From Comamonadaceae bacterium (lineage in GTDB: Bacteria; Pseudomonadota; Gammaproteobacteria; Burkholderiales; Burkholderiaceae_C), in contig CANGME010000008.1 in NCBI GenBank assembly GCA_947455145.1, forward strand, positions 62,001 to 126,000: a stretch of DNA of 64,000 nt. Reading direction: 5' to 3'. The notes under the pieces are model-generated. The model did no database searches and was not told the origin of the DNA. It saw only the letters and a list, made by a program, of their open reading frames with translations. Position numbers and translations under genes: made by a program. Positions 13,051 to 23,158 of this stretch are shown piece after piece. The first letter of the stretch is position 1. Every line of letters begins with the position of its first letter.

Positions 13051-14592
13051 TTAGGGTTTTTGAATCTCGAAACTTGGGTGCATGCTTTTGGCATGAACCA
13101 CGGCGATTTTGTCGGCATAGAGGCGACGCCATTCGGGGAGGTGGTCCAGCAATGAGGCCGCTGGACTTCCGGTGGGCAGCAAAGTCCACTCAATTTTGTA
13201 TTGTTCTATCAGCTTCTCCAAGCCATCAGATTCTTTGAGTCCGAGTGCTTCGATATATTTTTTAAGAAAGTCATCCCCGTAGATATCGGCTCGGCCATCG
13301 ATGAAGGGCGCGATGTTGGCATAGATCAAATGGCCACCCCAGCCATAGTCATTCAAAACTGGGCCACGTAGGCCCAGTGCTTGCGCGGCTTTGATGGCTT
13401 GGGTGGGGGCGCTTGATTCGTCCACTTGAATCGGTTTTATTTTGGCAACCAGGAAGGTGAAGCCGAGTAAGAAAATCAAACTCACTACGGCGGCAGCACG
13501 ACTGGTCGGTTGAGCCAGTTTCAAGAAGAAGCGATCAACCGATTCGAGTTGTGGTTCGCTCTGACGCCGTTGCTGCCACTGGGTGGCCAGTGGGGCGGCC
13601 AAAAACACGGGTGCGAGCAAGCCGAGCAACTCCACATAGCGAACGTGCTTGAGGGCCAGATGCAGCAGCCCCAGCAACACCAGCAACCGTATGGGTGGCA
13701 GACGCAGACCTTGGTACATGAAGAGTGCCATGCCACCCAGAAGCCATATCTCCAAAACTTGGAGTCCGTGGAAGTTGGGAGATGCCCATTCGCCAATGTG
13801 AGCCAGGGCGTAGCTGGAGTTGAACAGGACGTGCCAGGTGAACAAAATACCTTGCGGGCCATGTGGCGTGACGAGCGAACTGGCAATGGCGAGAAGAAAG
13901 AAAAAAGCCCATGACTTCGCTACGGCAAGCGCCCGTTGCTCTGGACGGGCCGCAATGACCGCTTCGAGCGCGAAAGGGCCGATCAGGGCCAAACCCAGCG
14001 TGAAGCCGCCATGCATATTGGCCCACAGCGTCATTGCCGGCAGCAGCCACAGCGATGGTCTGCGCTGCTCGTCGCTGGCGCGCACCAGCTCGATGATCCA
14101 GATCAACATCAAAGGCGTGGCAAGAATGTGGGGGCGAGCCAGTAGGTGAGACGCCGTCATCAAGACGGCATAGGTGGCAAAGATCAGGGCATAGACTGGC
14201 TCAATGGATTTGAGTACAGCGCGGGTCAGCAGCGCGATGGCTGCGCTGAACATCAGGCCGGTGAGGGCCACCACACCAGTCCAGCCGCCAAGATCATGCG
14301 CGCAGGCCAGTAAGACCTCGGACAACCACTCGTGCGCGGTCCACGGGGCGCCCGGCATGGTGTGTGAGAACGGATCAACGCTGGGGACGGCGCCGTGCTG
14401 AAGAATCCATTGCCCGGTGGCGATATGCCAGAAGGTGTCGCCGTCACTGAGCAGCGCTGATCCTGCATACAACACATACAGATAAACCAACACACCGACA
14501 ATGAGCGGCCAAGAAAACAGCCAATTGATTTGGCTGATCGGGCGCGCGGGGCTGACCAGTTGGGCGGCGGCTTCGGGCTGCATACGGTTCAC
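13051..14592 (-). CDS. Polytopic membrane protein, possible GT-C type glycosyltransferase
   Basis: 513 residues with about ten or eleven predicted membrane helices from residue 26 to about 385, then a soluble C-terminal portion of about 130 residues. The first large loop (about 48-95) contains SDGDTFWHIATGQW, DPFSHT and WTAHEWLSE, with acidic and His residues where GT-C enzymes place their catalytic and lipid-binding groups. I recognise the loop pattern from uncharacterised bacterial membrane proteins, not from a named enzyme. It heads the module with the GT2 enzyme 3 bases away, fitting a pair in which GT2 makes a lipid-phosphate sugar and this protein uses it. Function is inference. Confidence 0.6.
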   Translation of the reverse strand: MNRMQPEAAAQLVSPARPISQINWLFSWPLIVGVLVYLYVLYAGSALLSDGDTFWHIATGQWILQHGAVPSVDPFSHTMPGAPWTAHEWLSEVLLACAHDLGGWTGVVALTGLMFSAAIALLTRAVLKSIEPVYALIFATYAVLMTASHLLARPHILATPLMLIWIIELVRASDEQRRPSLWLLPAMTLWANMHGGFTLGLALIGPFALEAVIAARPEQRALAVAKSWAFFFLLAIASSLVTPHGPQGILFTWHVLFNSSYALAHIGEWASPNFHGLQVLEIWLLGGMALFMYQGLRLPPIRLLVLLGLLHLALKHVRYVELLGLLAPVFLAAPLATQWQQRRQSEPQLESVDRFFLKLAQPTSRAAAVVSLIFLLGFTFLVAKIKPIQVDESSAPTQAIKAAQALGLRGPVLNDYGWGGHLIYANIAPFIDGRADIYGDDFLKKYIEALGLKESDGLEKLIEQYKIEWTLLPTGSPAASLLDHLPEWRRLYADKIAVVHAKSMHPSFEIQKP

Positions 14593-14671
14593 TCTACCGT
14601 ATTTCCCTTTGCGAGGACAGTGTTTTTAAAGGGCGTGTTGAACAGCCTAAACCGCCTTGGTTAAGCGTTTG

Positions 14672-17275
14672 TCAGGTGGACAGAGTGCTCAGCAGCTCGG
14701 TCTCAATCTCAATCTGGGTGCGGTTGTTTTGCAGTGCTGCGCCGTCAATCAAGAAGGTGTCGTCCACCCGTTCACCCAGGGTGTTGATCTTGGCGAGTTG
14801 CAAGTTAATGCCGTGGCGAGCGAGCACGCGTGCCACGTTGTAGAGCAAACCGGCCTGGTCACTGGCAGCGATGCTGAGCAGCCAGCGCTGACCTTTTTCA
14901 TCAGGCTTGAGACCCACGCGGGGCACGATGGGAAAGCTCTTGACCCGGCGTGAGACCCGGCCTCGGCTCGGGGTGGGTAGCGGGTCACCCGTAGCAATGG
15001 CCTGCGCCAACTCGGTCTCGATCATGCTGGTGAGCTCTTGGTAGTGCTCGGGCTGGATGGATGTCACCACCTGGAATGTGTCTAGCGCATAGCCATTGAG
15101 GGCGGTGTGGATGCGGGCATCCAAAATGCTGTAGCCGCCATGGTCAAAATAGCCGCAGATGCGGGCAAACAGGTCGGGCTGGTCTTGGGTATAGACCAGC
15201 ACCTGCAGGCCTTCGCCCACCAACGAGCGACGCGCCCGAACGATGACTTTGTCTGTGCCCACCTCGCGAGAGAGCTGTCGAGTGTGCCAGGCGATGTCGG
15301 CAGCGTCGTGGCGCATGAAGTAGCTCACATCCAAGGTAGCCCAGAGTTTTTTCTGCGCCTCAAAGGGTAGTGCGTGCAGTGCCAGGTTGACCAAGGCCTC
15401 GCGCTTGCGTGCTTCCACCTCGGCGTCGGGCGAGGGCGCGTGGCCACCCAGCGTGCGCAGGGTCAGGCGGTACAGGTCTTCCAGTAGCTTGCCCTTCCAG
15501 GCGTTCCACACTTTGGGCGAGGTGCCACGTATGTCGGCCACCGTCAGCAGGTACAGTGCCGTGAGGTAGCGCTCATTGCCCACACGTTGGGCAAAGGCGG
15601 CAATCACGTCGGGGTCGCTTAGGTCAGACTTTTGGGCGATGCGGCTCATGCTCAGGTGCTCTTGCACCAAAAACTCAATCAGCTTGGCATCTTGGCGATC
15701 AATACCGTGCTGTTGGCAAAAACGGCGGGCTTCGCCCACACCCAGTTCAGAGTGGTCGCCCCCGCGCCCCTTCGCGATGTCATGGTACAGCGCGGCTACG
15801 TAAAAAATCCAGGGTTTGTCCCAGCCCGCAGCGAGCTGCGAACAAAAAGGATATTCATGCGCGTGCTCGGCAATGAAAAATCGACGCACATTGCGCAGCA
15901 CCATCAGGATGTGCTGGTCCACCGTATAGACGTGAAACAGGTCGTGTTGCATCTGCCCAACGATGCGACGAAACGCCCACAGGTAGCGCCCCAGCACCGA
16001 GGTCTGGTTCATCAAACGCATAGCGTGGGTGATGCCCTGGCGCTGCATAAGGATTTTTTTGAAGGTTTCGCGGTTCACTGGGTCATGGCGAAACTTGGCG
16101 TCCATCACCGTGCGGGCGTTGTACAGGGCGCGCAGGGTGCGGGCGGACAGGCCCTTGGCCCCGCTGGTGGTCTGAAACAACAAAAAAGTTTCCAGAATGG
16201 CCTGCGGCTCGCGCTGGTACAGGTCGTCGCTGTTGACTTCAATCAGCCCGTCTTTGTCGCTGAAACGGGCGTTAATGGCTTGCGGTTGTTGGCTGGATGG
16301 GTTGATGCGCTCTTCGATGTTGAGCAGCAAAATTTGGTTGAGCTGCACGACGGCCTTCGCTGCCCAGTAGTAACGCCGCATCAGCGCTTCGCTGGCGCGG
16401 GCCATCGGTTTGCCGTCACCGGTAGAAACCGAGGTGAAGCCGAAGGATTCTGCGACTGCCGTTTGCAAGTCGAAAACAAGCCGGTCTTCACGCCGCTTGG
16501 CAATCAGGTGCAGACGCGTACGAATCAAGCGCAGCGTTGCTTCGTTGCGCTTGAGCTGGCGCACTTCAAACGCAGTGGCGATGCCGTTGCGTGCCAGCGC
16601 GTCCCAAGTGTGGCCCAGGCCTGCGGCATGGGCCACCCACAGAATGATTTGCAAGTCACGCAGGCCACCGGGGGATTCTTTGCAGTTGGGCTCTAGCGAA
16701 TAGGGCGTGTCTTCAAATTTGCTATAGCGCTGGTGCATCTCCAGCGTCTTGGCCACGAAGAATGCCTTGGGGTCGATGGCTTGTTTGAACTGTTCGCAAA
16801 GTGACTGATACAGCGCTGCGTGGCCGGTCACCAGACGCGACTCCAGCAAAGCCGTTTGCACGGTGACATCTTTGGCGGCTTCGCTCAGGCATTCACTCAA
16901 AGAGCGCACGCTGGAGCCAATCTCCAGCCCCGTATCCCAGCAACTGGTGATGAAGGTCTCGATTCGGCTTTTGAGGTCGGCGTCTTGCTCGGGGGACTGG
17001 GCATCGGGCAGGAGCAGCAGCACGTCAATGTCGGAGTAGGGGAACAACTCGCCCCGGCCATAGCCGCCGACGGCCACCAGGGCCAGACTCGAATCGAAAC
17101 CGGCCATCTGCCACAAAGACTTGAGCGTGTCGTCGCTCAGTTTGGAGAGCTGATGCAGCGCGGAACGCACCGCACGGGTGGATGCCCCCCCGCTGGCTGC
17201 CGTATCTAAGAGCGCTGATTTTTGGGCGCGGTAATGGTCGCGAATGGAAGTAAGAGTCACGGCCTGATCCGCCAT
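14672..17275 (-). CDS. glnD: Bifunctional uridylyltransferase/uridylyl-removing enzyme
   Basis: Adds UMP to PII signalling proteins under nitrogen limitation and removes it when glutamine is high. 867 residues, normal length. The nucleotidyltransferase motif [16 protein letters not shown] (70-85), an HD hydrolase domain ([19 protein letters not shown], about 490-508) and two C-terminal ACT glutamine-sensing domains (about 690-770 and 795-865, e.g. [18 protein letters not shown]) are all present. map ends 3 bases upstream, the conserved map-glnD pairing. Confidence 0.97.
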
Positions 17276-17278
17276 GCT

Positions 17279-18082
17279 TCAAGCCGTCACGAAGGCGGGC
17301 GTGGGGGGGCTACCCGCTGAGAGCGTGAGCACCTCATAGCCCGTGGGAGTGACCAAAATGGTGTGCTCCCACTGGGCGGAGAGTGAGCGGTCTTTGGTGA
17401 CGATGGTCCAGCCGTCACCGGCTTCTCGGATGTCGCGCTTGCCAGCGTTGATCATGGGCTCGATGGTAAAAGTCATGCCCTCTTTGAGCACATCCAAGGT
17501 GCCGGGTTTGCCGTAATGCAGCACTTGGGGTTCTTCATGGAAACCCAGGCCGATACCGTGGCCGCAGAATTCACGCACGATGCTAAAACCGTTGCTCTCG
17601 GCAAACTTCTGGATGGCCCAGCCGATGTCACCCAGGTGGATGCCGGGTTTGACCATGCGGATGCCGTGCCACATGGCGTCATAGGTCATGGCGCACAGGC
17701 GTTTTGCGGCAATGGAGGCGTCGCCCACCGCAAACATGCGGCTGGTGTCGCCGTGCCAGCCGTCTTTGATCACGGTGACGTCGATGTTGACGATGTCGCC
17801 TTTTTTCAACACCTTGTCGCTGGGGATGCCGTGACACACCTGGTGGTTGATAGAGGTGCAGATCGATTTTGGGTAGGGCTTGTAGCCCGAAGGGGCGTAG
17901 TTCAGCGGGGCGGGAATGCAGCCCTGCACTTGCGTGATGAAGTCATGCGCCAGTTTGTCCAACGCGTCGGTGGTGATGCCGGGTTTGACGTGAGGGGTGA
18001 GGAAATCCAGCACTTCAGAGGCCAGACGGCCCGCAACCCGCATGCCCGCAATGCCTTGTTCGTCTTTGTAGGTGATAGTCAT
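17279..18082 (-). CDS. map: Methionine aminopeptidase type I
   Basis: Removes N-terminal methionine from nascent proteins. 267 residues from the ATG at 18082 (MTITYKDEQGIAGMRVAG); an open frame continues 46 codons upstream into mnmC but has no family similarity. The five metal ligands can be seen: two Asp in VNIDVTVIKDGWHGDTSRM, His in FCGHGIG, Glu in TIEPMIN and Glu in WEHTI. The gene lies 7 bases after the mnmC stop and 3 bases before glnD, so the three are probably one transcript. Confidence 0.97.
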   Translation of the reverse strand: MTITYKDEQGIAGMRVAGRLASEVLDFLTPHVKPGITTDALDKLAHDFITQVQGCIPAPLNYAPSGYKPYPKSICTSINHQVCHGIPSDKVLKKGDIVNIDVTVIKDGWHGDTSRMFAVGDASIAAKRLCAMTYDAMWHGIRMVKPGIHLGDIGWAIQKFAESNGFSIVREFCGHGIGLGFHEEPQVLHYGKPGTLDVLKEGMTFTIEPMINAGKRDIREAGDGWTIVTKDRSLSAQWEHTILVTPTGYEVLTLSAGSPPTPAFVTA

Positions 18083-18089
18083 GGATGGA

Positions 18090-19862
18090 TTATCCCATCG
18101 CTGATTCACCCTTGCTCTCATGCGCGCGCAAGGCGCTGAGGTGGCGCGCCAAAGAGGCGGGCAGTGGCCAAGGCTCGCCCCCCATTTGGGCGGCCAGTAG
18201 CTCGGCGCACAAGACGGCATAACTTAAGCCGCGTGAACCCAGGGCGGCGCTTATCCACAAGCTGGGTGAAGCGCTGGCCTCCATGGGGCCGACCACGGGC
18301 AGCCGGTCTGGGGTGACGCAGCGTGTGCCTTGCCAGGCTTGTGCCTCGCCGGTGGCAAATGCCGGAGCTAGGACTTGCGCAGCTTCAGGGAGCAGCGTGC
18401 GTAATTTCTGGAGGTTGGTTTGGTGGTGGGCCGACAGCGGCGCGTTGATGAGTTCGCCAGTTTCATAGGTAGCACCGGCATACCAGGCCAAAAGATTTGT
18501 GGCGTTTTCAGTTGCATGACCTGTTCGATGGCCCATGGGGATGTTGCAAATCAAACTGCCCAGTCCGTTGACGGGAAACGCTGGTAAAGCGCTGGTCTGC
18601 TCCGGCCCTTGCATACCCCAGGACATGACGCCGCGAATGCCTTGCAGTGCGGGCAAGCGGGCCAAGCTGGGCGCAAGTTCCGGCGCGGTCATTCGTAAAT
18701 CATCAAGCAGGGCTTGTGCGCCCCAGGCATTGGCAAAAATGACATGCTTGGCGCGGGCCAGCACCTGTCCTGCTGCATTGTGCAAAAGCCAAACATCAGC
18801 TTCGCGCCGCAGCCTTGCCACTGGGGCATGGGGCACAAAACGAATGCCGGGTTGCGCCAGCCAAGTCTGCACGAGTTGAGCGGGTTTGATCCACCCGGCA
18901 CGGGCATGCCAGAGTGTGGAGACACCCAGCTCCCGGTGCTCCAGCACGCCGCTCAGAGCCCAGTCTTGGCCCGATGTGAGCAGGGTTTTCGCCTGTTGCA
19001 AGCTCATGCGGATGCCGCTGCGAGAGAGCTGCGAGCGCGGGTTGTCATCTGCGGAGACGTGCGGCACAACCAACCCCACCGGTAGGCTGGACGCGCCTGC
19101 TGCGGGCGTTGCTGCTGCATCCAGCACCTGCACCTGCCAGCCGCGCCGGGCCAAGGCGCTCGCCACGCTGGCCCCTGCCAGGCCTGCGCCAATCACCACG
19201 CAGTCCGAAGGCGGCGGCGCTTTCAGGGCGCGGGCCAGATCAGGGTGGCGTGTGGTTTTCAGCGCCCAAGCGGGGTTGTAAGTCCATTGGTTTGACACCC
19301 CGTTGTGGGCCGTCTCAAAGCCGGTTTGCAGCAGCCATGCGGCTTGCGTGGTGCTTGGTGCTTGAGCTGTGACGAGCTGAGTGCCACGGCGACAGCAGCG
19401 GGCCAGTGCTTTGAGAGCCCAGCGATGGGACTCGGACACGAATTCAGGTGCGTCCCACACCACGCAGTCCGCTGCAAATTGCTGCTCCCGCAACAGGGCT
19501 TGGGTCTCGCCCACGCACAGGGTGAGCAGCACTCGGCCTTCGTTCAAGCTGATGCGCTGAAAACCTGTGCCTAGACTCAGGCATTCTTGCGCCAATTCTT
19601 GCGCCAGCTCATGCAGCTCAGAGGATGCAAAGGTGATAGCAGCGGCCTGCAAAATCGCATCCCCGGACGGCGGGAGCTCGCACAGGGCGACGTAGTGCAG
19701 GAGGCGAGGGCGCTTGGCGTCAGCCAGCCAAGTCTGCCAAGCCTCTAAAAACCGCTTGCCTTGATGAAAGTTGGTGTCCAGCACGCGCCAAGCCGACTGG
19801 TCACGCCACGCCAGAGGCAGGCCACAGCCCTGCAACAGGGGCTGCGACGCTGACTCAAGCAT
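18090..19862 (-). CDS. mnmC: MnmC with intact FAD oxidoreductase half and degenerate methyltransferase half
   Basis: MnmC matures the wobble uridine of certain tRNAs: the C-terminal FAD domain turns cmnm5s2U into nm5s2U, and the N-terminal domain methylates this to mnm5s2U. 590 residues. The FAD half is complete, from VVIGAGLAGASVASALARRG (222-241) through VVPHVSADDNPRSQLSRSG to the end. The N-terminal half keeps the overall pattern (LLQGCGLPLAW, RPRLLHYVAL, ALARCCRRGT) but the family SAM motif, usually ETGFGLGLNF, is DTNFHQGKRF (29-38), and the LDGFSPxxNPxxW active site is WDAPEFVSESHRW (136-148). The usual first 15-20 residues are absent; an in-frame stop precedes the ATG. Methyltransfer is probably lost. 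Confidence 0.88.
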   Translation of the reverse strand: MLESASQPLLQGCGLPLAWRDQSAWRVLDTNFHQGKRFLEAWQTWLADAKRPRLLHYVALCELPPSGDAILQAAAITFASSELHELAQELAQECLSLGTGFQRISLNEGRVLLTLCVGETQALLREQQFAADCVVWDAPEFVSESHRWALKALARCCRRGTQLVTAQAPSTTQAAWLLQTGFETAHNGVSNQWTYNPAWALKTTRHPDLARALKAPPPSDCVVIGAGLAGASVASALARRGWQVQVLDAAATPAAGASSLPVGLVVPHVSADDNPRSQLSRSGIRMSLQQAKTLLTSGQDWALSGVLEHRELGVSTLWHARAGWIKPAQLVQTWLAQPGIRFVPHAPVARLRREADVWLLHNAAGQVLARAKHVIFANAWGAQALLDDLRMTAPELAPSLARLPALQGIRGVMSWGMQGPEQTSALPAFPVNGLGSLICNIPMGHRTGHATENATNLLAWYAGATYETGELINAPLSAHHQTNLQKLRTLLPEAAQVLAPAFATGEAQAWQGTRCVTPDRLPVVGPMEASASPSLWISAALGSRGLSYAVLCAELLAAQMGGEPWPLPASLARHLSALRAHESKGESAMG

Positions 19863-19907
19863 GCGGGAAAAATCGCTAAAGGCGCTGGCGGAGTTTTAGC
19901 CGCAAAT

Positions 19908-20180
19908 TTAAGCGGTAGGGGGCACGTAGCCCTGCGCTTGATCGGCACCGGCGCCGAAGAAGTGGTTTTCCATCTGGCGTGCCAGGTACTGGCGTGCGCG
20001 GGCGTCGGCCAGGTTCAAGCGGTTCTCATTGACCAGCATGGTCTGGTGCTTGAGCCAGGCGGCCCAGGCTTCTTTGCTGACGCTTTCCCACAGGCGTTTG
20101 CCGAGTTCACCCGGGTAGGGGGGGAAGTCGAGTCCCTCAGCTTCTTTGCCGAGTTTGATGCAGTTCACCGTGCGTGCCAT
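19908..20180 (-). CDS. yggX: Probable Fe(2+)-trafficking protein YggX
   Basis: Small cytoplasmic protein of 90 residues that protects Fe-S clusters and takes part in iron handling. The family signature is intact: [24 protein letters not shown] (conserved Cys7), then [23 protein letters not shown] and [21 protein letters not shown] lies a suitable distance before the ATG. It is 45 bases upstream of mnmC on the same strand. Confidence 0.96.
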
Positions 20181-20331
20181 GAGTTCAATTCCTTAGTGGG
20201 GTGGGGTGCGTGGAAGGCAGAGCTAGGCTAAGCTAGGGCCTGTCCCTTCACGTTTCATCAATTGTCGCTGGTTTTGGATGATCCCTTGTCCCTTGCGGGT
20301 GGGTTCAGCGAGGTTTTACTTAGGAGTCCCT

Positions 20332-20835
20332 GTGTTAAGTCGTTTACGTGTGCGTGAAATCATGATGACCATTGCTGTGGTGAGCTTGGGCTTGCTGGGT
20401 TTTGGTTTGTATTTGCAGCATGTGGTGGGGCTGGAGCCGTGCCCCATGTGCATTGTTCAGCGCTATGCTTTGAGTTTGATCGTCTTCATGGCCGCGTTGC
20501 TGGCAGTCTTGAGTCACAAGTTGATTCATTTGGTCGGCACTGGGCTGGTGATGATGATGGCAGGATTTGGCGCGTTCGTGGCCGCACGTCAGAGTTGGTT
20601 GCAGTGGTATCCGCCTGAGGTGGCATCGTGCGGGCGAGACTTCTACGGGATGATTGAAATGTTTCCCTTGCAGCGGGCCATTCCCATGATCTTTAAGGGC
20701 AGTGGCGACTGTGCCAAGGTGGACTGGACGTTCCTTGGGGGCTCTATCGCCAACTGGTCTTTTGCATGGTTTTGCGCGATTGCACTTGTGGCTTTTGCGT
20801 TGCTTTGGACGCAGCTGTCACGTCGGGCCAAATAA
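20332..20835 (+). CDS. dsbB: Disulfide bond formation protein B
   Basis: Inner-membrane quinone reductase that reoxidises periplasmic DsbA. I chose GTG at 20332 because AGGAG lies five bases upstream; the frame runs 18 codons further back but without a ribosome site. This gives 167 residues, the family norm, with four membrane helices. The redox cysteines are Cys37 and Cys40 (EPCPMC) in the first periplasmic loop and Cys100 and Cys127 in the second. The last 18 bases overlap the convergent 97-codon gene. Confidence 0.95.
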   Translation: MLSRLRVREIMMTIAVVSLGLLGFGLYLQHVVGLEPCPMCIVQRYALSLIVFMAALLAVLSHKLIHLVGTGLVMMMAGFGAFVAARQSWLQWYPPEVASCGRDFYGMIEMFPLQRAIPMIFKGSGDCAKVDWTFLGGSIANWSFAWFCAIALVAFALLWTQLSRRAK

Positions 20836-21111
20836 ACTCGGGTGGTCGTCTTCTGGGTCTGACTTGGGTTGGGTCAGTTTGTCTTTCATTTTTACCATTT
20901 GGACTTCCAGGATGCCCATTTTTTGCAACATCTGATCCTGTAACTCGATTGTGTGGTCAAGGGCTTCAGTGGGCGAGTCTTCGAATATTTTTAAGCTTCC
21001 CCCTTTAGGATTCGTTAAAGCGTCAAATGCGCGTGATGTGACCTGCAAAAGACCATCCAACTCAGCCAGGATGGGTTGCAAATCGACATCTTTTTTATGC
21101 TCATTGGTCAT
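20818..21111 (-). CDS. Hypothetical 97-residue coiled-coil protein
   Basis: I do not recognise this protein. It is soluble, charged and predicted mostly helical, with a probable coiled coil at about 53-82 (heptad-like spacing in LDHTIELQDQMLQKMGILEV) and an acidic tail ending SDPEDDHPSLFGPT. The case for a real gene is a strong GGGAGGG Shine-Dalgarno, a good upstream promoter, and amino-acid use typical of a protein. It has no signal peptide or membrane segment. It converges on dsbB with an 18-base overlap. Confidence 0.7.
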   Translation of the reverse strand: MTNEHKKDVDLQPILAELDGLLQVTSRAFDALTNPKGGSLKIFEDSPTEALDHTIELQDQMLQKMGILEVQMVKMKDKLTQPKSDPEDDHPSLFGPT

Positions 21112-21141
21112 TTCCCTACCCTCCCTTTTTATATGAGTAAC

Positions 21142-21170
21142 ATTTTGTAATAATTTGGTTTACATGTCAA
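21142..21170 (-). promoter_or_regulatory. Sigma-70-like promoter for the 97-residue gene
   Basis: Read on the minus strand: a perfect -35 TTGACA (21170-21165), a 17-base spacer, and CAAAAT as -10 (21147-21142, four of six consensus bases). Transcription would begin about 20-25 bases before the ATG at 21111. This is one of the best consensus promoters I could find by eye in the window. Confidence 0.55.
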
Positions 21171-21239
21171 GTTGGCAAGTCGCATTAGTCGCTTTAGGTT
21201 TGTGCTGACGGTTTTGCTGGACATTCAAACTGCCTATGA

Positions 21240-21255
21240 TTGAAATGAAATTCAA
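21240..21255. promoter_or_regulatory. Imperfect palindrome upstream of the Rieske oxygenase gene
   Basis: TTGAAAT-GA-AATTCAA has six of seven arm positions complementary and lies 30 bases before the oxygenase ATG. Another ATTCAAA occurs about 40 bases further upstream (21213-21219). It could be an operator for a substrate-responsive regulator; the stretch is AT-rich, so chance is possible. Confidence 0.3.
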
Positions 21256-21284
21256 ATGTTTAGATATCTTCATCAGGATAGGAC

Positions 21285-22358
21285 ATGAATACCCTTGTCG
21301 CCCCGGTTGCTATTAGTCTCGCACCTCGACCCTTCCCACTTAACCGTTGGTGGGTCGCAGGTTTTTCTTGGGAGCTCAAAGACCAACCCCTGGCCCGCAC
21401 CTTGCTGAGCCGTACGGTGGTGCTGTACCGCACGCCCGACGGTGCGGTTGCCGCGCTTGAAGACCGTTGTTGCCATAAAGAGTTGCCGCTGTCGTGCGGC
21501 GTGGTAGAGGCGCGGGGCCTGCGCTGTGGCTATCACGGGCTGCTGTTCAACACCGAGGGCAAGTGCATTGAGGTGCCGGGCCAAGAGCGCATCCCGGAGC
21601 GCGCCCGCGTGCCCTCATACCCCTTGCGTGAGCGCGATCAAATCTTGTGGATTTGGATTGGCTCGACACCCGACTCACAGCCCGATTGCGAGCCACCCGC
21701 CTACCCCGTGCATAACGATCCGCGCTACAAGTTTGGTGGCGACAGTTTTCATTACGACGCGCCGTACCAACTGATTCACGACAACCTGCTGGACTTAAGC
21801 CACCTGGGCTATGTGCACGCCAAAACCATTGGCGGTAACCCGAGCCTGCACATGAACGCAGCGGTGAAGGTGGAGGGAAGTGGCGACCATGTGCGCGTGG
21901 TGCGCCTCATGCCTAACAGCAGCCCACCGCCCACCTACAGCGCGGCTTGGCCCTTTGGCACACCGGGCATTGACCGATGGCAAGAAATTGACTTCAAAGT
22001 CTCCCATGTGGAGATTTGGACGGGTGCGATGGACGTTGGTAGCGGTGACTTGAGCGACCCCAAGCGAGAGGGCTTTCACATGCGCGGCTTTCACGGCGTC
22101 ACGCCCGAAACGGCCACCAGCGCACATTATTTCTGGACTATCGCCACCAACCCGCACCCGGACAAACAGGATGTGACGCAACTGGTGGTGGACCAGACCG
22201 CGCAGACCTTTGAAGAAGACAAGGTACTGATTGAAAACCAGTGGCAAAACCAATGTCGCTTCCCGGTACGAGCCCAAATTGACATCCATGTGGATGCCGG
22301 TCCTAACCGGGCGCGGCGGGTGATTGAGCGCTTGATCACTGGTGCAGTGCCCCAATAA
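21285..22358 (+). CDS. Rieske non-heme iron oxygenase, alpha subunit (VanA-like)
   Basis: 357 residues, the size of the VanA/dicamba-monooxygenase group that demethylates or hydroxylates aromatic acids. The Rieske [2Fe-2S] ligands are Cys62-x-His64 (RCCHKELPLS) and Cys81-x2-His84 (CGYH). The mononuclear iron site lies in HDNLLDLSHLGYVH (Asn, Asp and two His, about 166-179). AGGATAGGA precedes the ATG. A ModA-like binding protein follows after 20 bases and is probably co-transcribed. No VanB-type reductase is in the window, so electrons must come from elsewhere. The substrate cannot be told from sequence. Confidence 0.85.
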   Translation: MNTLVAPVAISLAPRPFPLNRWWVAGFSWELKDQPLARTLLSRTVVLYRTPDGAVAALEDRCCHKELPLSCGVVEARGLRCGYHGLLFNTEGKCIEVPGQERIPERARVPSYPLRERDQILWIWIGSTPDSQPDCEPPAYPVHNDPRYKFGGDSFHYDAPYQLIHDNLLDLSHLGYVHAKTIGGNPSLHMNAAVKVEGSGDHVRVVRLMPNSSPPPTYSAAWPFGTPGIDRWQEIDFKVSHVEIWTGAMDVGSGDLSDPKREGFHMRGFHGVTPETATSAHYFWTIATNPHPDKQDVTQLVVDQTAQTFEEDKVLIENQWQNQCRFPVRAQIDIHVDAGPNRARRVIERLITGAVPQ

Positions 22359-22378
22359 TTAACGACGAGAAATTTGCC

Positions 22379-23158
22379 ATGAACATGAATGCAATGAAGT
22401 CCATCGTTTTGAAAGTGGGTGTGGGTGTGGGTGCTGGAATGGTGCTAGCTGCTTTAGCCACGGCGCACGCCGCCGAGATCAAGGTCATCAGCTCCGTCGG
22501 GGTGAAGGCCGCGCTGGAGCAGCTCAAGCCTGAGTTCGAGCGCATCACCTCACACAAGCTCACGCTGATCTGGGGCAGCGCTGTGCCGCTCAAGCGCCAA
22601 ATTGACGCGGGCGCGACCTTCGACGTGGCGATTTTGACGCCCGGCATGATTGATGAGCTGGTCAAAGTGGGCAAAGTTGCGGCGGGTTCTAAAACCGATG
22701 TGGCCAAAGTCGGCATGGGTGTGACGGGACGAGTGGGTGCAGCGCAACCCGACATCAGCACTACCGAAGCGTTCAAGCGCGCACTGCTTGACGCGAGGTT
22801 GATCACCCACTCCAAAGAGGGTTTGAGTGGCACATACACGGCCAGCGTGATAGAGCGGCTCGGCATTGCCGCGCAGATGAAACCCAAGACCGTGCTGGAA
22901 ACCCGCTCGGGCCACACCCCCGTGGCTGTGGTGGAGGGCAAGGCCGATCTGGGCTTGTGCCTGATCAGTGAAATTTTGCCGGTTGCCGGTGCCACCTTCA
23001 TTGGCCCGTTCCCGCCCGAGTTGCAAACCTATGCGATGTTCACGGCGGGCATTTCTGCCACCGCCAGTGATGCGCAGGCTGCCAAAGCATTTGTGCAATT
23101 CTTCTCAGTGCCGCTGGCATTGCCCATCCTCAAGTCGACTGGTATGGAGCCGGGTTGA
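22379..23158 (+). CDS. ModA-like periplasmic substrate-binding protein
   Basis: 259 residues with a signal peptide (hydrophobic 11-27, cleavage likely after ATAHA near residue 31). The mature part has the type II periplasmic-binding fold of the molybdate-binding-like group: ISSVGVKAALEQLKPEFER, then LIWGSAVPLKRQIDAGATFDVAIL and GIAAQMKPKTVL. No permease or ATPase gene is adjacent, so it is an orphan. Twenty bases after the oxygenase suggests that it binds an aromatic or carboxylate ligand connected with that enzyme, not molybdate; that is inference. Confidence 0.75.
   Translation: MNMNAMKSIVLKVGVGVGAGMVLAALATAHAAEIKVISSVGVKAALEQLKPEFERITSHKLTLIWGSAVPLKRQIDAGATFDVAILTPGMIDELVKVGKVAAGSKTDVAKVGMGVTGRVGAAQPDISTTEAFKRALLDARLITHSKEGLSGTYTASVIERLGIAAQMKPKTVLETRSGHTPVAVVEGKADLGLCLISEILPVAGATFIGPFPPELQTYAMFTAGISATASDAQAAKAFVQFFSVPLALPILKSTGMEPG

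Follow-up and report, generated by a model that had tools for sequence, protein, structure and literature searches.

What has become of a bifunctional tRNA enzyme of which one half seems to have lost its chemistry, and which modified nucleoside does its host make in consequence? MnmC is the bifunctional bacterial enzyme that completes a chemical mark on tRNA, and mnm5(s2)U34 tunes the decoding of NNA/NNG codons. In the window (the whole stretch of 64,000 nucleotides analysed here) mnmC lies at 18090-19862 on the minus strand, as an open reading frame of 590 aa for which the reading frame, the family profiles and the predicted fold indicate a pseudo-methyltransferase domain followed by an FAD oxidase domain. 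That the methyltransferase half looks dead and the oxidase half intact is, as far as sequence can tell, well supported.

The FAD-dependent oxidase domain MnmC(o), residues 219-590 (18093-19208, minus strand), scored above the cut-off of TIGR03197 (198.3 vs 174.2 bits) and keeps the FAD-site residues G271, G273, S304, G518, R567 and G619 (E. coli numbering), which bears out the claim of the sequence-only reading that this domain is intact. The MnmC(m)-derived N-terminal domain, residues 1 to ~205 (19248-19862, minus strand), was delimited by alignment and is predicted with high pLDDT. It fails NF033855, the equivalog-domain model of the stand-alone methyltransferase (32.4 vs 136 bits). With Pfam Methyltransf_30 (cut-off 22) the window protein scored 19.3 and, in a six-frame search of the genome, the window mnmC scored 22.8, barely above the cut-off. 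The full-length MnmC equivalog NF002480 was not reached by the window protein (340.4 vs 540 bits). An Rfam scan of positions 14000-23000 of the window gave nothing at gathering scores.

We judged the SAM and catalytic residues named for E. coli in PMC3648344. Motif I, residues 29-38 (19749-19778, minus strand), is broken and reads DTNFHQGKRF, in which E. coli G68 and N72 align with His33 and Arg37. Cys61 (19680-19682, minus strand) stands at the position of Glu101, described in the same paper as the SAM ribose ligand of E. coli MnmC. The LDGFSPxxNPxxW site, residues 136-148 with Trp148 as the last (19419-19457, minus strand), is broken as well and reads WDAPEFVSESHRW. Overall, in E. coli numbering, the window carries G68H, N72R, E101C, G179A, F180P and P182F, with alignment gaps at N185 and K236, and retains Phe67, Gly70 and Asp178. 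The methyltransferase domain had been called dead-looking from DTNFHQGKRF and the altered second site, and both the residues and the NF033855 score agree with this.

A domain that is still an active methyltransferase, only with a changed SAM site, would fit the three retained residues and a Rossmann fold that is predicted to be intact. Against this, among 60 rows of the clade to which the window protein belongs (see below), Glu101 occurs in 0, Gly68, Asn72, Gly179, Phe180, Pro182, Asn185 and Lys236 are mostly lost, and D178 is kept in only 38%; moreover, in some other genomes dead domains are accompanied by separate, intact methyltransferase genes. We therefore regard continued methylation by this domain as very unlikely.

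The usual N-terminal segment is also absent, and the ATG is preceded, 12 codons 5′ of it, by an in-frame stop, as the sequence-only reading had stated and as inspection of the open reading frame confirmed; the alignment shows no clear counterpart in the window protein of the E. coli segment with Phe24/Asp26. The further claim that the SAFSDFS codons in this spacer (19863-19898, minus strand, defined by inspection of the reading frame and by comparison with congeners) still resemble the family N-terminus is unsupported, with no such match shown. The ATG aligns across three congeners (the window, L004 and L005), and the yggX-mnmC spacer of the window (19863-19907) contains ~24 bases absent from the other two. 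L004 lacks two bases just 5′ of the ATG, so that the region of SAFSDFS is out of frame there, and it does not have the similar AFSAFSP that L005 reads in frame; hence two of the three congeners have this piece of DNA in common. The comparison of these spacers does not support SAFSDFS as a protein remnant.

The two congeners come from separate genomes (78% and 71% identity) and carry the same broken motifs in open frames, so the changes are not sequencing errors. An assembly or sequencing artefact is thereby refuted and its chance is negligible.

In order to see how far the dead state extends, we scored MnmC rows on eight residues. In a first set of 112 rows the score was nearly bimodal: 36 rows scored 7-8, and two rows fell at 5-6. 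On a FastTree tree of the oxidase domain the window protein falls in a clade of 67 rows (support 100; 61 distinct proteins, six of them present twice) that comprises Rhodoferax, Hylemonella, Curvibacter and relatives. The methyltransferase domain is present in all 67 rows and intact in none, which makes its loss of function probably ancient. Restoring all rows adds just L232 to the branch, a locus truncated by the end of its contig; nothing intact or intermediate joins it. A careful tree of 65 rows also unites the 33 members of the clade in one group (100/96), with one origin in 200 of 200 bootstraps. Recent or unique decay of the window gene is ruled out by this clade-wide occurrence. The window mnmC adjoins yggX, and a yggX match is likewise found at 65/67 dead-clade loci and at 21/21 intact loci of the named set; the window gene is thus the ordinary chromosomal copy.

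The named set consists of the best 80 of 372 loci by similarity to dead proteins and is unusable for the frequency of dead forms. Within this similarity-chosen set, 23/23 Rhodoferax-titled, 4/4 Hylemonella and 2/2 Curvibacter loci are in the dead clade, 14/15 Polaromonas-titled loci are intact (the exception, L049 from a MAG, is in the dead clade) and the one named Variovorax locus is intact. The genera suggested for comparison by the sequence-only reading thus divide, Rhodoferax being dead like the window and Polaromonas largely intact. Simplicispira has two loci outside the dead clade, one dead and one intact.

For the family at large we drew 150 genomes, in 139 of which the oxidase domain was matched at E < = 1e-25; the MnmC loci that we read number 143 and come from 142 of the 150. 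We considered 76 loci as intact, 6 as intermediate, 47 as dead and 14 as without methyltransferase domain, by the eight residues and with added rows fitted to fixed columns, so that single rows (e.g. L202, L204) are possibly misjudged. The dead loci include L200, of which only the oxidase frame was read, and L228, cut at a contig end; the six intermediate rows were omitted from the counts of losses. Four of the 14 domain-less loci are at contig ends (L165, L198, L213, L232), and about ten (L030, L183, L214, L215, L219, L222, L223, L226, L227, L231) are oxidases without the domain. As single observations, L200 (genome G058) has its methyltransferase and oxidase parts in different frames and may be frameshifted; L111, a Giesbergeria MAG copy, looks intermediate, with only some methyltransferase motifs altered; and G069, with a listed contamination of 6%, carries two different fused MnmC genes (L120 and L164).

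By parsimony on the FastTree tree, with its weak branches, the dead or lost states form 33 separate groups in the family sample and 35 overall. In the careful tree, 6 changes are required to explain the six dead rows that fall outside the clade, and only 2 of these changes are forced by starred branches. All this is most simply explained by a single old loss in the dead clade and separate further losses elsewhere in the family.

Is the dead half, then, simply decaying under relaxed selection, with no role left, as the sequence-only reading supposed? We took the medians of dN/dS from disjoint pairs, 13 of the dead clade and 10 intact (a subset of 26 and 21 pairs). For the methyltransferase domain the median was 0.281 in dead-clade pairs vs 0.119 in intact pairs, i.e. 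more than twice that of the intact relatives; for the oxidase domain it was 0.180 vs 0.222, and the median methyltransferase/oxidase ratio was 1.66 vs 0.51 (Mann-Whitney p 1e-4). In the genus of the window, three pairs gave dN/dS of 0.20-0.27 for the methyltransferase half and ~0.20 for the oxidase. The claim of relaxed selection therefore stands in its first part, as a ratio of 1.66 vs 0.51, and decay would also be in keeping with the roughly ten loci that lost the domain entirely and with the 33 separate groups given above. Mere decay is a different matter: a dN/dS of ~0.28 is well below 1 and means that constraint was weakened, not abolished. Moreover, the domain is retained by 10/10 clade members of the family draw, although most dead loci outside the clade retain it as well, and many of its columns are near-invariant (Trp at position 192 in 97% of the 60 clade rows). 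On balance we hold plain ongoing decay to be unlikely.

To see where the constraint lies, we considered the columns conserved at > = 90% in 35 intact rows and scored their retention in the 60 clade rows; the columns of the SAM pocket and of the domain interface were our own selection from PMC3648344. In the methyltransferase half, mean retention was 0.30 for the SAM pocket (17 columns), 0.77 for the interface (10) and 0.60 elsewhere (62), and columns kept at > = 80% numbered 7/10 at the interface and 29/62 elsewhere. By the same measure the oxidase domain gave 0.87 (106 columns). A conserved stretch, residues 100-118 (19509-19565, minus strand), corresponds by alignment to E. coli 137-155, most of the interface region as described in that paper, and includes Arg103, the equivalent of Arg140; the salt-bridge pair Arg140/Glu628 across the interface is kept at 98% and 97% in the clade. 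The partial conservation of the interface speaks for a scaffold role of the domain, with the caveat that its columns are few (10) and that their advantage over the remainder is modest.

Some residues have become fixed in the dead clade. E. coli position 192 (Trp148 of the window) is Trp in 97% of clade rows as given above and His in 28/35 intact rows; Leu153 (E. coli 197) is the second new residue so fixed. Around Trp148, Lys151, Leu153, Arg155, Arg159 and Gly160 are conserved. A new function of the dead domain, e.g. binding of tRNA or of another ligand in place of SAM, would account for the two fixed residues and for these conserved neighbours. The region of Lys236, however, called RNA-binding in PMC3648344, is lost, no conserved new pocket was shown, and fixed hydrophobic residues are compatible with simple repacking of the core; a new function thus seems to us quite unlikely.

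In the clade, fixed changes are also seen in the oxidase domain. Arg523 (E. coli numbering) is present in 34/35 near intact rows (the other has a gap) and in 0 clade rows; changes of this kind mean that the oxidase might be altered too. As a general marker of dead enzymes the loss of Arg523 was rejected, for the Arg is missing from 39/98 intact rows and present in 24/39 dead rows that lie outside the clade.

An AlphaFold2 model of the window protein, built with a 49-sequence alignment, had a mean pLDDT of 91.9, with most of the methyltransferase half at ~90 or more; this confidence leans partly on the alignment, and high pLDDT says nothing of activity. With the whole-protein model as query, VIA-align superposed residues 4-588 on E. 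coli MnmC 3awi_A (Z 36.0, 541 aligned residues, rmsd 2.8), in rows dominated by the oxidase domain. The protein is thus predicted to have the two-domain MnmC fold, with the methyltransferase domain packed on the oxidase.

We then considered whether the host could supply the lost step from another gene. MnmG and MnmE were both found in the window genome (completeness 97.09%). The search for a stand-alone MnmD suggested by the sequence-only reading was carried out in this genome and found none: the profiles matched mnmC and, weakly, one PF05430 candidate at 10.9 bits, and a stand-alone methyltransferase query had zero matches at E < = 1e-38. Since the genome is 97% complete, a gene was possibly missed. 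MnmM (YtqB, PF06962), an unrelated enzyme that performs the same methylation in other bacteria according to PMC9976899, gave no match at E < = 10 in the window genome and, in 24 genomes of the family, none that exceeded the cut-off, and was set aside as the replacement in these genomes. An unrelated methyltransferase could still replace the lost step.

Some relatives do have a separate gene. Among the 24 genomes checked, G072 and G123 combine a dead fused domain with a strong separate PF05430 gene; the search of the 150 genomes added G146 and G064, whose fused domains are dead too (L203, L141). A separate gene thus accompanies 4/47 dead loci vs 0/76 intact ones (Fisher p 0.02, with relatedness ignored). 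Among 50 named genomes of the clade, many of them MAGs of unstated completeness, we found 6 full-length separate genes, and 42 genomes had no match at E < = 0.001; the match in G198 has the same coordinates as that in G146. The strong separate match of G152 is only a 95-residue piece, and that of G154 a fused fragment. L238, taken at first as a stand-alone candidate, turned out when read to be part of a fused mnmC lying at the end of a contig, and was left uncounted.

Across 399 family genomes, at least 10 have a separate gene among the matches listed, as judged by reading-frame length and identity, the short frames of G149 and G005 being taken, on the strength of their matches, as pieces of fused genes. 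Each of these ten listed genomes has a single match at E < = 1e-38, hence no intact fused domain alongside; the fused domain was inspected directly in 4 of them. Compared with the other 232 matching genomes, which were counted as fused, Fisher p was 1.4e-4, the ten representing five genus codes and relatedness being ignored.

The ten separate genes or pieces that we read form one group (support 97). The full-length ones retain ETGFGLG, LDGFxP and PPK, and the separate genes have a GRVxLTLAVG-like strand at the position of the interface strand, which, according to PMC3648344, is absent from the stand-alone enzyme of A. aeolicus; the kept motifs and this interface-like strand suggest that they descend from a fused MnmC. 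Some hosts of the separate gene belong to the clade (G123, G146), and others do not (G072 in the careful tree; G064, absent from the 67-row clade). The separate genes L233 and L241 are 79% identical and belong to one host outside and one inside the clade; so close a pair across the clade boundary suggests horizontal transfer.

Known systems help to place the window protein. It shares with the bifunctional MnmC of E. coli and Y. pestis (PDB 3ps9, 3awi, 3pvc, 3sgl) the order of domains, the predicted fold, the FAD-site residues and the Arg140/Glu628 pair, and differs from it in having no SAM site, no Phe24/Asp26 segment and no Lys236 region. The nearest laboratory counterpart is the E. coli mnmC(m)-G68D mutant (PMC3936742), in which the methyltransferase step is lost and the oxidase kept, as is predicted for the window protein; Gly68 is changed in both, and the natural form, unlike the mutant, has many more changes, spread through a clade. 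The stand-alone MnmC(m)/MnmD (PF05430) is homologous to the dead domain, with an intact copy in some relatives with dead domains and none found in the window genome; MnmM, absent from our matches there, is unrelated to MnmC(m). The separate copies of the relatives differ from the A. aeolicus protein in the strand described above. A search of titles and the opening lines of abstracts found no description of a naturally methyltransferase-dead MnmC, which is weak evidence of its absence from print.

We consider it probable that the window MnmC carries an old pseudo-methyltransferase that has been retained to support the oxidase structurally, nm5(s2)U34 being the expected end product. Precisely, a large clade, for the most part Comamonadaceae, would have inherited from its ancestor a methyltransferase domain already turned into a pseudo-enzyme, with SAM binding and methylation gone; the oxidase domain would still take the carboxymethyl group off cmnm5(s2)U34; and the dead domain would be kept folded against the oxidase for stability. 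The tRNA would then end as nm5(s2)U34, plus any cmnm5 on tRNAs not used by the oxidase, nm5(s2)U34 being expected because the window genome yielded neither a stand-alone MnmD nor MnmM. The basis in sequence is the loss of most SAM-site residues, the kept FAD-site residues, the sharing across the clade, the residual constraint, the partial conservation of the interface and the presence of mnmE and mnmG.

Both the end product and the stabilising role are supported by E. coli data in PMC3936742: in the G68D mutant the cmnm5s2U/nm5s2U split was ~15/85, and the separate domains were less stable in vivo and bound each other with a KD of 87 nM. According to the same paper, MnmC(o) alone can fold and work with similar kinetics; this, and the roughly ten family loci without the methyltransferase domain, means that the scaffold is not always needed.

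Extended to the whole clade, the proposal is that the domain is a structural pseudo-methyltransferase subunit, with nm5(s2)U34 terminal in most members and re-methylated in a minority through a mobile gene derived from the methyltransferase half of a fused MnmC. To this wider form we give somewhat less than even chances, and put it forward tentatively.

Similar losses of the methyltransferase are common in the family, and the window does not present the decay of one isolated gene. Annotation as bifunctional MnmC may mispredict the modification of tRNA in a sizeable part of the family. Impaired MnmC reduces the competitiveness of E. coli, as stated in PMC3936742. If the proposal is true, a clade that has long been without the methyl group, its close relatives with an intact enzyme and the lineages that possibly regained the step would together form a natural experiment on what the methyl group does.
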